Assembly: GCF_021513255.1 (NCBI RefSeq)
Contig: NZ_CP090977.1
Location: 3,286,001 to 3,350,000, forward strand
Origin: Planococcus sp. 107-1
Lineage (GTDB): Bacteria > Bacillota > Bacilli > Bacillales_A > Planococcaceae
Direction: 5' to 3'
DNA length: 64,000 nucleotides
The translations under genes and the position numbers were made by a program. Each line of letters opens with the position of its first letter. The stretch's first letter is position 1. Below are positions 24,917 to 31,471 of the stretch, one piece after another. The notes beneath the pieces were generated by a model. The model was given only the letters and a program-made list of their open reading frames with translations, was not told the DNA's origin and made no database searches.

Positions 24917-25143
24917 CTCTATGAAATTTATGTAGCTGTTTGATAATTGCTTGTATAAATATGAATGTCACTTTTAAATAAAAATTGTATCAATTCAGGA
25001 TTTAATCTGCATAAAATTTGAAAGACCAATAACCTTAAATAAAGAGGTCACTAGCTTTTCAAGTTCTTTACTTCGTATATAAACTTCCGATAAGCCCTCA
25101 TATGTTAACTAAAAATAAATATCGTGAAAATTTCATTCTCCCC

Positions 25144-25174
25144 TTGAACCTTACGTAGGGTAATGTTTTATAGT
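25144..25174 (+). promoter_or_regulatory. MerR-type promoter of the hslO-merR operon
   Basis: TTGAAC (25144-25149) and TATAGT (25169-25174) are 19 bp apart, too long for a normal promoter but typical of MerR control. The spacer carries the dyad ACCTTAC-GTAGGGT (25148-25161). The MerR protein of the same operon is the likely ligand. Confidence 0.75.
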
Positions 25175-25209
25175 AAAGCTAGCTTACTTTTGCAAAAGGG
25201 GGAATCGTT

Positions 25210-26070
25210 GTGCAAAATGCCATTGTTAAGGCATTAATTAAAGAAGAACAGATTCGTCTATATTTTATTGATAATTCCCAGTTGCTTCGCGATATCTATG
25301 CCTTAAACCAGGAACTTCCTAAACCGCTTAAACTACTGTTAGGCAAAACGATATCAGCAATGAGCATACTCTCTGGTACGCTCAAAGGGAACCAGCGAAT
25401 GAGCCTCCAGGTAACGTTGAGCAACACTCGCCATAAGATTTTTGCGGAAGCCGAAGCCAATGGAAATGTCAGAGGATACCTGAACGAGGAACTTTTGAGA
25501 TCTTCTAATATAGAAGAAAAGTCGATGCAAGATTTGATTGGACCTTCTGGGATGATCCGTGTCATAAAGGGTTCTGAGATGAATCAATTCACCAGCATTA
25601 CCGATATGCCAAATCAACATATCACGGATGATATCGCCAACTATTTTGTGCAGAGTGATCAGACGCCGACCTATCTTTATTCCGACATTCAGTTGGATAA
25701 GGGAGGTTCCCTTCTTTCCAGCCATGCACTATATGCACAACTGCTTCCCGGTGCACCACCACAACTGCTTTCAGAAGTGAAAATGATTGTGAAAGCCAAT
25801 CCGGATATTTTCAGTAAACTAAACGCTGAAGAAGCGAGTGACAGCGAAGAAGCGTTAACCCAGTTGTTTGGGGATGCAAAAATTATTGGCCATAGCTCCA
25901 GTCAATTTTTCTGCGGATGCAGTAAAGAAATGTTCTATGGCATGCTTTATTCATTGAGTGAAGAGGAAATCAAACGGAGCATTGAACGAAAGGAAGACAT
26001 TGAAGCTTTTTGCCATATTTGCGGGAAAACCTACACGTTTGAGCAAAAGGAGATGCAGCAACTCTTCTAA
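25210..26070 (+). CDS. Hsp33-family redox chaperone (HslO-like)
   Basis: A holdase activated by oxidation. The 286-residue chain has the N-terminal substrate-binding fold and the C-terminal zinc switch Cys235-x-Cys237 (FFCGCSKE) and Cys268-x2-Cys271 (FCHICGK). The 30-residue gap fits the C-x-C-x27-32-C-x-x-C pattern of Hsp33. The sequence is diverged from typical Bacillus HslO, and it is not beside cysK or the genes hslO usually sits with, so it may be a second copy. It starts at GTG with GGGGGA upstream. A MerR-type promoter precedes it and a MerR/TipAS regulator follows in 59 nt. Confidence 0.88.
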   Translation: MQNAIVKALIKEEQIRLYFIDNSQLLRDIYALNQELPKPLKLLLGKTISAMSILSGTLKGNQRMSLQVTLSNTRHKIFAEAEANGNVRGYLNEELLRSSNIEEKSMQDLIGPSGMIRVIKGSEMNQFTSITDMPNQHITDDIANYFVQSDQTPTYLYSDIQLDKGGSLLSSHALYAQLLPGAPPQLLSEVKMIVKANPDIFSKLNAEEASDSEEALTQLFGDAKIIGHSSSQFFCGCSKEMFYGMLYSLSEEEIKRSIERKEDIEAFCHICGKTYTFEQKEMQQLF

Positions 26071-26129
26071 CTTCGAATTTCTCGGTTTTAGTTGGTGAAT
26101 AGAAATGTTGTTAAATGGAGGCTAAGCGA

Positions 26130-26857
26130 ATGAAGGAACATTGGAAAGTCGGAGAAGTTGCCGAATTGGCGGGTTTAACGATTCGAACTTTACGCTATTA
26201 CGATCAAATCTGTTTATTTTCACCTTCTCAGTATACGGAGTCAGGGCATCGGCTTTACACGAAAGCAGATTTGGTCCGTCTTCAGCCCATTTTGTCCTTA
26301 AAGCAGATGGGCATGTCGTTAGAAGAAATACAACTTCTGTTGTCTAATCCGGAGGAACAAACCGTTGCAGAGATTTTGCAAACCCAAATTTCCGCGTCAA
26401 AAAAGAGATAGAGGTTCAGCAAAAACTAGTAGCAGAGCTGGAAAATGCGTTATCGGCTGCGCGCAGCAATCGGACCATGTCGATTCCAGAACTTACTAAA
26501 TTAATGGAGGCGCTGAAAATGAATAAGGAAAAATACTTTTCGAAGCAGCAATTGGATACCATGGAAAGCAGATATGAGAATGCTGATAAACAACTCTTAA
26601 AGCAGGCCGAGCAAGAGTTTAACGATCTTATCAAGGAAATACGTTTGGAAAAAGAAAAAGGCGCTTCTCCTTCCGATGAAAAAGTACAAGATTTAGCGAA
26701 AAAATGGAATGACATCGTGAATGCCTTTTCCGAAGACGATAGGACTTTCCGCAAGCAAGCCGAACATTTCCACGCCGAAAACCCAGGAAACGAACTGCAA
26801 TATGAAATAGATGGCGAGCTATACCAATTTATCAGTCAAGTATTGAATCATAAGTGA
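26130..26857 (+). pseudogene. MerR-family regulator with TipAS domain (frameshifted)
   Basis: The intact frame would give about 242 residues: a MerR winged helix (WKVGEVAELAGLTIRTLRYY), a coiled coil, and a TipAS-type antibiotic-binding domain near the C-terminus (WNDIVNAFSEDDRTFRKQ, FHAENPGNELQYEID). The frame breaks at 26399-26404, where six A should be seven for SASKKEIEVQQ to continue. The ATG at 26130 has GGAGG eight bases upstream. TipAL proteins respond to thiopeptides or other ligands and twist long-spacer promoters. Such a promoter lies in front of hslO, so this gene probably regulates its own operon. Confidence 0.8.
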
Positions 26858-26865
26858 TTTTATAT

Positions 26866-26915
26866 GAAAGGAAGAGGAAAAGCTGATAAGTTGGCTTCCC
26901 TCTTCCTTTCTTGTA
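26866..26915 (+). terminator. Terminator of the hslO-merR operon
   Basis: GAAAGGAAGAGG (26866-26877) pairs with 26899-26910, followed by TTGTATTTGTTTTT. The rest of the gap to 27159 holds only a minus-strand ORF without a ribosome site. Confidence 0.75.
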
Positions 26916-27159
26916 TTTGTTTTTAACGAACTTCCGATAAATTATTGATACGTAAACTAGATTTGTTTTGGATTTACGATTCAGATTCAACTTGTCCAGC
27001 TACTATACATGACTTTTCACCTTTCATATTTCCACATATCGGAGTAATACTGAACGTATATACATGACAGAAATCAACTATTTTACATTTGGTTATAATG
27101 TCACCCTGTTTATTGAAGCAGATTTCCCATGAGTGATCACTTGGTAAAATTCCAAGCAT

Positions 27160-27684
27160 TTGATGACAAATTTATTTTCATTTCGCAAACCAGTACCGAG
27201 TATTATGATTGACGAACGTCTGTTACAAAGAGCCGAAAAAGTGGTACTGTTCGATCATCACCGCCGAGGTGTAGAATTTATCGACAATACGCTACTTGTC
27301 TATTTGGAGCCATATGCTTCTTCTACACCAGAACTCGTGACCGAATTGATCGAATATCAGCCGAAACACGACAAAATGACGATGCTCGAAGCAACATCGA
27401 TGCTTGGTGCACGTTATAGAAGAGTAAGGAGCGAACAAGACAAGCGTCCGATGATTTCCGGTCTTCGTGAATCGGGTTCGATTGAGCAAGATGCCGATAG
27501 CGTATCCTTCTTATACCGTGAAGATTACTATGACAAAGAAACAGAAAATCAAAACATGCTTGAAATCACCATTGCCACGCAGTGTAACGGTCTAACGGAT
27601 GCCGTGACCTTGGCCTTTGTGAAAGAGTTCAATAAGTTTGTCAAAATTGATTGGAGCCAGCATACGGCTCCGCCGGCCCCCTAA
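27160..27684 (+). pseudogene. Relic joining a GdpP (DHH) fragment to a DnaB helicase fragment
   Basis: A 174-codon ORF without a ribosome site. Residues about 11-82 match the DHH part of the c-di-AMP phosphodiesterase GdpP (VVLFDHHRRGVEFIDN, YLEPYASSTPELVTELIEYQ, MLEATSML). From residue 83 the match is the C-terminus of replicative helicase DnaB (SEQDKRPMISGLRESGSIEQ, YREDYYDKETENQN, LAFVKEFNKFVKID). In Bacillales the intact order is gdpP-rplI-dnaB, so this looks like a duplicated copy with rplI and most flanking sequence deleted, leaving an in-frame joint. Changes such as ATQCNG for AKQRNG suggest decay. The true genes must lie elsewhere. Confidence 0.75.
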
Positions 27685-27756
27685 AAGAGTCCGGTTTTTT
27701 TGTAACTTTTTCAGTGTTTGTACGTATTTATTGGGAACGAAAGGAGTGGAATTAAC

Positions 27757-28122
27757 ATGAAATGGTTGATCGGCTGTTTAGGCTTCATTGTATTAGCTGT
27801 ATTCGGATACTTTGGCTATTTCGCGTTTGCGACAGAAGAGTCTAATGAATCATCAGATCCGAGGAAGGAATTAATCAGTGTCTCTCCAAATGAAGAATGG
27901 CGAATTGAACTAGTTGAAGCGGAAATAGACGGGAAAGCGCATAAAGCCTACTATGGAAAAAATGAGGATCAATCAAGAAATAGAATGAGCAGTATCAATA
28001 TTGACCCGGAAGGCAAAGAGAACACGACCATGGATATTGAATGGATTTCTGATGAATCAGCCGACATCTTGCTCCTCGAAGAAGGGGTTGAAATCAGACG
28101 AATGAACTTAACGTTAGAATAA
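27757..28122 (+). CDS. Hypothetical membrane-anchored protein
   Basis: A 121-residue protein with one N-terminal helix (MKWLIGCLGFIVLAVFGYF) and an acidic extracellular part of about 95 residues that appears to be mostly strand. No family is recognised. The ATG at 27757 is chosen because AAGGAGT lies nine bases upstream; a longer ORF from 27718 lacks a site. It stands alone between the GdpP-DnaB relic and a terminator shared with the CPBP gene. Confidence 0.6.
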   Translation: MKWLIGCLGFIVLAVFGYFGYFAFATEESNESSDPRKELISVSPNEEWRIELVEAEIDGKAHKAYYGKNEDQSRNRMSSINIDPEGKENTTMDIEWISDESADILLLEEGVEIRRMNLTLE

Positions 28123-28179
28123 GTGTGTTTTCTGAAAAAAAGTAGTAGTTTCAAGCTGGTATATTAAACAATTTAATCA

Positions 28180-28221
28180 AACACGAACATCTAATTCGCA
28201 ATAAAATTAGATGTTCGTGTT
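28180..28221. terminator. Bidirectional terminator
   Basis: AACACGAACATCTAATT (28180-28196) pairs with 28205-28221 around an 8-nt loop, between two converging genes. Confidence 0.8.
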
Positions 28222-28230
28222 AAATGGGGA

Positions 28231-29088
28231 TTAGTTCCCTAACAGTCTACTAATAATCTCCAGAGGGAAATTTGTTAATCCATGAACAATGATGAGAACC
28301 CAAAAGTTTCGATATTTTGACCATAAAAGTCCTAAAAACAAGCCCATGAGTCCATGGTTCGCCATGGAATTTGCTAATGTCACATCAAAACTGCCTGCGC
28401 TCTGTATAGTAACGTGCCAAACAGCCCATAACAAAGCAGTTACACAAATGGCCGGCCATGTTCCTAAAAAAATCTCCAATCGAGTTTGTAACCAAACACG
28501 ATAAAATAATTCTTCCAGAACACTGTTAAGCAAAAAAGAAACTAAAGCACCGGTCAATAAAATAAGAAAATTCATTTCGTATGTATTCGACTCTGAAGAA
28601 CTCCATGGACTGAAAAAATACATAAACATCCATACGACAACGGGTATGAGGGCAAATTTCCACTGTTTTTTTGCAGAATGTCTGTGAAGTTTTATTTTTG
28701 GTTTCCATTTGAAAATTATAAGAGGAACAAAAAGCAGAAAAACAAGTTTGTAAATATAAAAAAAGTCAAAAACATGTTCAGCAGGCGTTATAATTAGAGC
28801 GAGAAAATAAAAAAGAGCAGCAATCAATAGATAATGCGTTTGTGATTTTAGAGTCTGTTTTTCCTCCTCTTGTAAGGAGAGGATTTTTGGGTTTTTATAT
28901 GGTAACAAATATAAAATAATAAAAGGTAACCCGACTATTAACCAGTGATGCCACAGTAAAAGCGAATCATCAAAGTCTGCACTGACGATGATACGCCCGT
29001 TATTCGATAGAATAATCCATATAGAGGATACTACAAGAATGACTATGGTTATATAAATTAAGTAAGAGTTCTTCGATGTATTTATCAT
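28231..29088 (-). CDS. CPBP-family intramembrane metalloprotease
   Basis: A 285-residue membrane protein with about eight helices. The CPBP (CaaX protease and bacteriocin-processing) motifs are present: Glu192-Glu193 with Arg197 in LEELFYRVW, then LLWAVWHVTIQ, then IIVHGLTNF. These glutamates and histidines form the metal site. Roles in bacteria include bacteriocin self-immunity and cleavage of membrane proteins. A MerR regulator gene lies 93 nt upstream in the same direction, so the protease may be its target. Confidence 0.85.
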   Translation of the reverse strand: MINTSKNSYLIYITIVILVVSSIWIILSNNGRIIVSADFDDSLLLWHHWLIVGLPFIILYLLPYKNPKILSLQEEEKQTLKSQTHYLLIAALFYFLALIITPAEHVFDFFYIYKLVFLLFVPLIIFKWKPKIKLHRHSAKKQWKFALIPVVVWMFMYFFSPWSSSESNTYEMNFLILLTGALVSFLLNSVLEELFYRVWLQTRLEIFLGTWPAICVTALLWAVWHVTIQSAGSFDVTLANSMANHGLMGLFLGLLWSKYRNFWVLIIVHGLTNFPLEIISRLLGN

Positions 29089-29181
29089 GTCTTTCCTCCT
29101 TTGTTTGCTTGCCGATATAAAAATTTCTTCCGACTTTTTCCTCTCAGCCTTTAGGGCTTCCGCTCGTTTCCTTTGTTCAAT

Positions 29182-29922
29182 TCACTCCTCATTCTTAAAC
29201 TCATTTGCTTCGTAAAAATCGATAATTTTATTAATATATTCAATTACGTTTTCTTCCACCAAAATTAATCCGCCTTTTTCTGGTGCTTCCTTTTGTAGCC
29301 TCCAATACTTTTCGATTAGTTCTTTATCACCGTTAAACGCCTCATCAAGAAACAAAACAAGTTTTCTAGCCAAGGTCTGAGATTTCATCGAGCTTGGATG
29401 TTCATATTTCTGTTCCCTGGCTATTCTCAATAAGTAAACTATTTCCATAGATTCCTTCTCACCCATATGAAATAGGGGATTGTTAAAAACCTCCCTCTCT
29501 TTTTCACTAAAGAATTCTTTCAAATAAGCCATTTGCTTAACTTGATCTTCTTCCGTTTGTCCTATGTAATGGAATAGGTTGGTCCAATTTATGTCTTGTT
29601 CAATAAAAGATAGTTGCTGGGTTAACCTAAGCATTTTTTCCAAATAATCAAGGTGTGCTTTTTCTTTTGCAATAATAATCAATTGCTCTTCAAAAATATC
29701 CTCCCAGTCATTTTCATTCAAAATAGATTTAACCTGTTCCAATTGAAATCCTAGTTTCTTTAAGGCAATAACTCGCTGCAGAACTAGAATATCTTCTTTT
29801 GAATAATAACGATAACCTGAATCTGCAATTCGGGAAGGTGTCAATAAATCGATTTCATCGTAATAGCGCAATGTCCGAACAGTCAGGTTAAATTCTTTTG
29901 CTACTTTTCCAATACTATACAT
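29182..29922 (-). CDS. MerR-family transcriptional regulator
   Basis: A 246-residue regulator: MerR winged helix at residues 1-70 (YSIGKVAKEFNLTVRTLRYY, then ADSGYRYYSKEDILVLQRV), a dimer helix, and a long helical C-terminal part of about 130 residues without metal-binding cysteines, so a drug-type or unknown ligand is likely. GGAGGTG precedes the ATG. Its own promoter has a 19-bp spacer filled by a dyad, the standard arrangement for MerR autoregulation. The CPBP protease gene follows. Confidence 0.9.
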   Translation of the reverse strand: MYSIGKVAKEFNLTVRTLRYYDEIDLLTPSRIADSGYRYYSKEDILVLQRVIALKKLGFQLEQVKSILNENDWEDIFEEQLIIIAKEKAHLDYLEKMLRLTQQLSFIEQDINWTNLFHYIGQTEEDQVKQMAYLKEFFSEKEREVFNNPLFHMGEKESMEIVYLLRIAREQKYEHPSSMKSQTLARKLVLFLDEAFNGDKELIEKYWRLQKEAPEKGGLILVEENVIEYINKIIDFYEANEFKNEE

Positions 29923-29951
29923 AAGACACCTCCGATAGTTCTTTCCTTTTC

Positions 29952-29982
29952 AGTATAACTCTACCGTAAACGGAAGAGTCAA
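29952..29982 (-). promoter_or_regulatory. MerR-type promoter with 19-bp spacer
   Basis: On the minus strand TTGACT (29977-29982), 19 bp, TATACT (29952-29957). The spacer and edges form the dyad CTCTTCCGT-TT-ACGGTAGAG with one mismatch. Confidence 0.85.
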
Positions 29983-30038
29983 CAGGCGCCATACACTATT
30001 CTGTGAATTTTACAAGAATATGAATCCTTGGTCTAGAA

Positions 30039-30163
30039 AGCGTTCGTAAAAGTACACTTTTCCGAACGCTTTAAAAAGGGCCAAAATGATCGAAAAGAGC
30101 GTTCGTAAACGTGTCAAAATACTTTACGAACGTCCGCCGATTCGGACACATGTTTACGAACGG
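30039..30163. repeat. Array of GTTCGTAAA repeats in both orientations
   Basis: The core GTTCGTAAA or its complement appears near 30042, 30100, 30123 and 30153, and GCGTTCG/CGAACGC arms at 30038 and 30064 form a hairpin. The gap 29983-30202 holds this array only. Confidence 0.7.
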
Positions 30164-30202
30164 TTTATAGGCCGATTTTTGAAGCAACAAGCCCTTCCGC
30201 TT

Positions 30203-31439
30203 CTATGATTTCTTCAAAGAAGTTCCTGCATTCAACTGTTGCACCCTACTGTTTGGAAAGTCCAACCGCCAAAGAACCAGTGCAATAGCTGCTATCCCGA
30301 AACAACCGATAATGACAGCCAACCGGATGGAAAAGAAATAAGACACCGAACCGAATCCCATTGTCAGGACGATAATGCCCATCGCTTCTACAAGACCATA
30401 GATGCTGGATACTCTCCCCAACACTTCTGCAGGAATCTGCTCTTGATAAAAAGTCTGAAAGCCTGTGTTGGCAAATGCGAGGGCAAATGCCAACACAAAG
30501 AAACCGGCTGCAGCACCGCAGAAAGACGATGAAAATGCATAAATCAAATATCCGCCAGCCGTACCCGCTGCACCAATTTGCATAAGAAATGATACTGCGA
30601 GCTTCTTTATAAAAATCGCTGTCGTAATGGAGCCAGCGATGATTCCGCTCCGCGATGCTGACTAAAAATCCGTATTCATCCTCTTCCAACTGCAGGATTT
30701 CAGTGGAAAAAGCCGCTTCCATTGAATCTAAAGCAGTGGCAGCTACCATCATTCCGCTGAAGATCAAATACACTCTCGCGACGTTAGGGTTAGATTTGCT
30801 GAAAGCAAAGACCATCGCAAGATCTTTTCTTAATAGAGTCCAAGAGATCGATTCGGCATTTTCTCCTCTCGCTTTCTTTCCTTCTAAATTCGGCAAAGCC
30901 ATTACGAGCAGACCGGATGCCAACAAAGCGGCTGCATTTATCTCTATCGCTATTTCCGGTGTGCTTATGACGAATAATACTCCCGCAATTGCCGGACCTA
31001 GTAAAAAGGCTCCTGAATCCACCAGACTCCGAAAGGAATTGAAGCGTTTGCGCTGTTCCGGCGCCAGCAGCATGCTGACATACACCATGGATGCAGGTAC
31101 GAAAATGGCGTTTAATATCCCCAATAAAAATACGAATAAATAAATCATCTCAAGTGAGTGGATAAATGGCAGCAGCCCAATCAATATTGCCCGGGAAATA
31201 TCCAAGCCGATCATCAGCCGCTTCTTATTTATCCGATCCACTACGCTGCCGCTCCAGCCGTTCGTCACTAACATGGCAGCAGGAGCAATGGCATATAATG
31301 CCGCAACGGCGAAAGCGGAGCCCTCTGCCATTTCTAGCACCGTTAGATTTAAAGCGATTAAATAGATCCAGGCACCGATATTCGCAATCCCAATGCTCAT
31401 CAATAAAATTACTGGATTTCTCCATCGTGTTTCAGCCAT
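30203..31439 (-). pseudogene. MFS exporter, MFS_3 type (frameshifted)
   Basis: The intact frame would give about 412 residues and 12 helices. The N-terminal part has LLMSIGIANIGAWIYLIALN, the loop WSGSVVDRINKKRLMIGLD and FNSFRSLVDSGAFLLGPAIA, as in the macrolide-efflux/enterobactin-exporter type. The C-terminal part, in another frame, has QEQIPAEVLGRVSSIYG. The break is near 30640-30650, where one extra G (or two missing bases) explains the shift. The ATG at 31439 has GGGTGG upstream. A T-box leader precedes it, so expression should respond to an uncharged tRNA. The substrate is unknown. Confidence 0.75.
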
Positions 31440-31471
31440 GTGCACCCACCCTTTCGATTTTCATGAAACGC

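Follow-up and report, generated by a model that had tools for sequence, protein, structure and literature searches.

A probable gdpP-dnaB relic in Planococcus lies in an apparently mobile module between a dif-like Xer site and a res-like palindrome

Results

A probable chimeric relic within a module that has moved between species

In Planococcus sp. 107-1, an open reading frame built from fragments of gdpP and dnaB is most likely a non-functional, decaying relic of the gdpP-rplI-dnaB locus, devoid of catalytic or helicase function and serving as spacer DNA at most. We consider it highly probable that this relic is a passenger in a mobile module that extends from a dif-like Xer site to subsite I of a res-like repeat, and that would be mobilised by XerCD. 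The features are listed in Table 1; the window is the whole stretch of 64,000 nucleotides that was analysed (NZ_CP090977.1, positions 3,286,001 to 3,350,000), and its genome is referred to as G000. The ORF had originally been predicted to join a DHH segment of GdpP to the C-terminus of DnaB; a third gene remnant and the site-specific borders are additions to that reading.

Table 1. Coordinates of the features in the window, with the basis of each assignment
Feature	Position	Strand	Basis or remark
dif-to-dif module with hslO and a MerR-family gene	25083..26958	+	recurs in G008, G022, G033, G021 and G062
dif-like Xer site, left border of the hslO module: ACTTCCGATAA gccctc ATATGTTAACT	25083..25110	+	homology ends here
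Third Hsp33 (hslO) paralogue, module cargo	25210..26070	+	PF01430
MerR-family gene of the hslO module, split into two ORFs here	26115..26857	+	G008 and G022 carry it intact (247 aa)
dif-like Xer site, left border of the chimera segment: ACTTCCGATAA attattg ATACGTAAACT	26930..26958	+	homology of four genomes begins here
NTF2-like gene remnant	26931..27195	-	alignment to a G012 stretch; relative on Listeria innocua plasmid pLIS35
Reported ORF, probable chimeric relic	27160..27684	+	TTG start, 174 aa; ORF list, Pfam, comparison of copies
gdpP-derived piece, end of DHH domain	27208..27406	+	74% DNA identity to own native gdpP; PF01368
Joint, about 20 nt of uncertain origin between the gdpP and dnaB pieces	27407..27426	+	DNA alignments
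dnaB-derived piece, 3' end with native stop position	27427..27684	+	DNA alignments; PF03796
Small protein, family uncertain, good ribosome site	27757..28122	+	no Pfam match
CPBP/Rce1-like membrane protease	28231..29088	-	PF02517
MerR-family regulator; cut to 185 aa in G033	29182..29922	-	PF13411
28-bp palindrome (PAL), res subsite I, right border of the segment: CGTTCGTAAAA GTACAC TTNNNCGAACG	30041..30068	.	homology end
res-like repeat	30037..30166	+	subsites I 30041-30068, II ~30100-30132, III ~30138-30162; no resolvase gene beside it

The open frame and its constituent pieces

The predicted union of GdpP and DnaB fragments was borne out by the ORF itself, by Pfam and by DNA alignments. Residues 24-80 match the DHH domain (E 1.2e-8, profile positions 62-120 of 125) and residues 87-161 match DnaB_C (E 3.6e-23, profile positions 180-254 of 255). 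Both halves align to genes of the same genome, the front half to gdpP and positions 27436-27662 to dnaB at 79% DNA identity, with similarity from 27427 under permissive settings; the end of the chimera coincides with the position of the native dnaB stop. The intact gdpP-rplI-dnaB locus that was expected elsewhere in the genome was found about 84 kb away on the same chromosome (G000:C1 3397856-3400304). The assignment of residues 1-82 to GdpP stood for the DHH piece; however, it failed for the first ~12 codons, which are antisense to an NTF2-like remnant. That remnant is 74% identical to part of G012, at a place where a complete 132-aa gene adjoins a dif-like site, and 77% identical to the gene on pLIS35. 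As judged from these alignments, the open frame is composed of pieces of three genes.

Matches to the chimera were obtained in 53 of 60 genomes searched, nearly all of them to native genes, and the joint was present in four: G000, G022, G033 and G027. Because it occurs in three assemblies besides that of G000, the joint cannot be put down to misassembly in G000, and the expectation that related genomes would carry it was confirmed. Two of these three assemblies, in which the exact joint was found, are those of Planococcus maitriensis S1 and uncultured Planococcus 2-10-3Z. When the sequence was read by eye, no ribosome site was seen upstream of the chimera's start, in agreement with the original prediction, and the next gene (27757) is preceded by an AAAGGAG ribosome site. 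The chance that both pieces share a frame is one in three, and the open frame is therefore weak evidence of a gene.

Evidence for a relic rather than a working protein

The ORF had been proposed to be either a decaying relic or a small new protein with an HHRR segment and a partial RecA core from DnaB. The former is favoured because one of the four copies is frameshifted, DHH is changed to DYH in three of four, and both domains are truncated, and a new protein is accordingly regarded as very unlikely. The frame is open in three of the four copies, as would suit a protein; however, the copy in G027 carries a 13-bp duplication and a frameshift and reads only 138 aa. The motif reads DYHRRG in G022, G033 and G027 and DHHRRG in G000 and the native genes. 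Substitutions at conserved positions, which had been noted from the sequence, were borne out across each half: among the 10 of 24 native loci listed, the gdpP half differs from the natives by 11-14 of 66 residues (with the gdpP half of G019 left out) and the dnaB half by 14-15 of 74, whereas the natives differ among themselves by 1-4 and 0-1 residues, respectively. The front halves of the DHH and DnaB_C domains are missing, and the ORF contains neither a complete DHH/DHHA1 domain with an intact DHH motif nor a complete C-terminal RecA core with Walker A, the position of which we take to lie in the missing part of DnaB_C. The dN/dS of the chimera was 0.73-0.90 between G000 and each of the remaining copies and 0.27-0.45 within those three, based on 4-15 changes, too few to decide, and with the G027 columns of the 13-bp duplication skipped. 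The lower values would speak for a protein, though on few changes; the MerR gene gave 0.24-0.95 and hslO 0.11-0.23, likewise on few changes. The absence of a ribosome site also argues against a new protein.

The 3.14-kb segment is shared between species

When 25 kb of the window was compared with the three other loci that carry the joint, a single common block was found, from window position 26931 to 30068 (to 30166 in G033). This 3.14-kb segment (26930-30068) is 97.6-98.3% identical in G022, G033 and G027, whereas the native dnaB regions of these genomes are only 77.8-78.0% identical to that of G000 over ~6.3 kb; the segment has therefore moved recently between species. These alignments indicate that it moved between Planococcus species as a unit. 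The original prediction had instead taken the chimera for a duplicated copy of the genome's own locus. A local duplication of gdpP-rplI-dnaB followed by one deletion would fit with the intact locus on the same chromosome, 84 kb away; however, we regard it as most improbable, as the chimera is 74-79% identical to its own native genes and 95-98% identical to the copies in other species, which lie in other places. Furthermore, a tree of both halves (without support values) puts the copies outside all native Planococcus sequences used. A tree of the dnaB half alone puts them inside the native Planococcus sequences; the halves disagree, and the donor is not placed. Loss of rplI and most of both genes by one deletion is plausible, and no deletion intermediate of the chimera was found.

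No transposase gene was found in the segment (26930-30068) by ORF list and Pfam. A 17-bp perfect inverted repeat, AACACGAACAT...ATGTTCGTGTT, lies at 28180-28221 between convergent genes and resembles one 3' of native dnaB in G022; it may be a terminator or PurR-box-like. Beside the array, the MFS transporter at 30203-31445 consists of overlapping ORFs of 126 and 399 aa, compared to a single ORF of 412 aa in G008, and may be frameshifted.

The left border is a dif-like site of a type found throughout the genus

All four copies of the chimera segment begin with ACTTC(C/T)GATAA, 6-7 bp and ATA(T/C)GTAAACT, and the four spacers are all different. To the same design of XerC arm, spacer and XerD arm, the rest of the G000 genome holds one near-dif, ACTTCCGATAA tttata TTATGTCAACT, at 1670016, with the XerC arm of the module sites. 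A search for chromosomal dif in 46 genomes of the genus gave one site in 44, two in G018 and none in G016, and the site lies near mid-chromosome in the complete genomes looked at (e.g., 1.69 of 3.26 Mb in G022). In 24 of 45 genomes, among them G000, chromosomal dif has the same XerC arm as the module sites; in the other 21, which include G022, G033 and G027, the chromosomal arm is of the CTTCCTATAA type, one base off the module arm. The borders thus resemble the host chromosomal dif in all three elements, with that one-base difference in 21 of 45 genomes.

With the pattern ACTTCYGATAA-5to7-ATRYGTNAAC, 155 module-type sites were found in 42 of 46 Planococcus genomes, and the reversed pattern, used as a control, gave 0 in all 46. 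The same pattern was present in 6 of 215 further genomes of the order, all labelled as the same family (control, 0). Across 29 loci, mostly fetched for holding dif-like sites, there were 101 sites with no more than 3 mismatches; 69 of 72 neighbouring sites within 10 kb were in the same orientation, and the spacer was 6 bp in 65 sites, 7 bp in 32, 8 bp in 3 and 5 bp in 1. Two dif-like sites of G012 (L058, 13312 and 15287) are opposite to the rest of their array and are among the few exceptions. Five shuffles of the window gave 0-3 matches each at 5 mismatches, which sets the noise level for weak sites; a degenerate dif-like site after the segment in G022 falls at this level and was not relied on.

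The right border is part of a res-like repeat

The segment closes on the right with the palindrome PAL, which in the window forms the start of a 130-bp repeat found scattered across the genus. This border was considered as the end of a mobile insertion element, and that candidate was rejected, as on plasmids the repeat is a res-like site before a recombinase gene. In four of five plasmid regions (P. maritimus twice, P. lenghuensis and S. aureus pSA8589), the repeat lies 42-46 bp before such a gene, and all four recombinases match PF00239; no recombinase gene is listed beside the repeat in the P. glaciei plasmid region. The repeat comprises three inverted repeats of 28, about 33 and 25 bp, which resemble a Tn3-type res layout, the subsites being named by reading the sequence against that layout. 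Three inverted-repeat subsites next to a PF00239 gene are accordingly found for four of the five plasmid copies, and the copy in the window is the repeat only. Close copies of the resolvase (86-94%) are present in 5 of 10 genomes searched, and among these 10 the close gene is absent from G000 and G008. A PAL is located 53-95 bp away on the XerC side of 25 of the 101 dif-like sites, and within 130 bp on the XerD side of none of the 101.

The repeat at 30037-30166 matches, at 86% identity, the one that adjoins the recombinase gene on pSA8589, a cfr plasmid of S. aureus. Plasmids from Proteus, E. coli, Salmonella, Pasteurella and Providencia give the same match.

A neighbouring module carries hslO

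The dif-like site at the left border of the chimera segment also closes a second module, which holds hslO and a MerR-family gene between dif-like sites in direct orientation. This module is 94-98% identical in five other genomes with nearly the same ends; in G062, one end extends 130 bp beyond the site. Its Hsp33 is 22-26% identical to two other Hsp33 genes present in each of the 7 genomes searched, and at 95% identity or more it was found only in module carriers, four of those 7.

Module ends coincide with dif-like and res sites

Module ends were analysed in the 29 loci as the ends of stretches of at least 500 bp with at least 88% identity between genomes, with ends cut by a locus edge left out. 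Of 95 ends, 68 were no further than 40 bp from a dif-like site (57) or a PAL (11), compared to 4.8% of random positions, although 68 of 95 is not to be read as a probability, as the loci were chosen for their sites and the same module was counted in several genome pairs; the remaining 27 ends were not near any site. At least 9 different modules end at dif-like or PAL sites, including those of the chimera and hslO, one of 1038 bp that G008 and G022 share in identical form, one of 915 bp with a RelE-annotated relative, one of 1001 bp of the MazF family and one of the SMI1 family. The same module was found in different contexts with its ends at sites, and G022 and G033 have 6.6 kb in common at 97% up to one dif-like site, directly followed by different modules.

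Two of these modules also occur on Planococcus plasmids, and a third has a relative there. The MazF-family toxin module is present over its whole length, at 92%, on P. maritimus pKRIBB-KS-1-1 between a dif-like site and the palindrome; the SMI1 module is present in three plasmid records of Planococcus, where it ends at dif-like sites, one of which has 4 mismatches; and a P. lenghuensis plasmid carries a relative of the RelE module, at 87%. No plasmid in PLSDB was found to carry the chimera module, the hslO module or the 206-aa module, and neither an excised circle nor an empty site was seen. The 5.1-kb record NZ_CP025128.1 was considered as an excised module circle and rejected, since it is annotated as linear and is 97% similar to a piece of another plasmid. 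Taken together, these comparisons indicate that module ends coincide with dif-like or res sites, and that other modules of the same kind occur on chromosomes and plasmids.

The coincidence of ends and sites could also arise if ordinary homologous recombination, or transposition, had carried the segments, with the dif-like sites and PAL being mere landmarks, for example as targets of insertion elements. PAL is part of a dispersed res-like repeat, which offers possible homology, and the IS1202 family targets dif sites. However, the borders fall inside the dif-like site itself, between a common flank and different modules; in one module, the spacer at the left end differs in each of four copies; and the segment is free of transposase genes. 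We therefore consider it unlikely that the sites are landmarks only.

Discussion

The preferred reading, a passenger relic in a module mobilised at Xer sites, would work as follows. Host XerC/XerD (CodV/RipX type) would join and excise modules at dif-like sites on plasmid and chromosome, and junctions of the second type, formed at res subsite I, would be the work of a plasmid resolvase or of homologous exchange. Plasmids would carry the modules between species, and one module would have picked up a scrap of gdpP-rplI-dnaB that is now decaying. More tentatively, and with somewhat less than even confidence, we propose that Planococcus possesses an integron-like, integrase-free cassette system with composite junctions (res subsite I, terminator, dif-like site), in which XerCD and a plasmid serine resolvase would shuffle direct-repeat modules, and of which the relic would be captured host DNA.

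The dif module system is called unique to Acinetobacter in a 2026 paper (PMC13141974), and chromosomal dif modules in Acinetobacter are described in another (PMC12907356). Among the literature matches listed, with subscription journals mostly outside their scope, none reported dif modules for Planococcus or for any other Gram-positive bacterium. If the present reading is correct, dif modules are not confined to Acinetobacter, and a Gram-positive genus has its own direct-orientation version on chromosomes and plasmids. Direct orientation, unlike the Acinetobacter layout, would permit modules to be excised singly, and the puzzle of dif-module movement would therefore become testable in a harmless environmental genus. 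Such a system would also explain near-identical scraps of host genes in different species, and since a related res site is found on a S. aureus cfr plasmid, the pool may be connected to other hosts.

Compared with the dif (pdif) modules of Acinetobacter, as described in PMC13141974 and PMC12907356, those of Planococcus are alike in being short gene modules, often toxin-antitoxin, with dif-like XerC/XerD sites and variable spacers, in arrays, on plasmids and chromosomes. However, sites in Acinetobacter alternate between C/D and D/C, whereas almost all in Planococcus have one orientation (69 of 72); in addition, 7-bp spacers are common in Planococcus, a quarter of its sites have a res-subsite palindrome on the XerC side, and the host is Gram-positive. 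Because sites, modules and toxin-antitoxin cargo are alike but the alternating orientation is lacking, we regard the Planococcus arrays as a variant rather than as members of the dif module system. Similar to IMEX elements (PMC5357621), the Planococcus modules would use host dif-like sites with no integrase of their own; however, the IMEX elements described there are phages or islands at chromosomal dif, whereas the modules lie away from dif, in arrays.

The 130-bp repeat is similar to the res sites of serine resolvases from plasmids and Tn3-type elements in its three inverted-repeat subsites and, for four of the five plasmid regions, in a PF00239 gene close by; unlike them, it stands alone in the window and on several chromosomes and marks the border of a module. 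Inspection by eye revealed nothing resembling an attC site. Chromosomal integrons are nevertheless similar in their layout, as they too are direct-repeat arrays of promoter-poor cassettes that end in a terminator and a recombination site.
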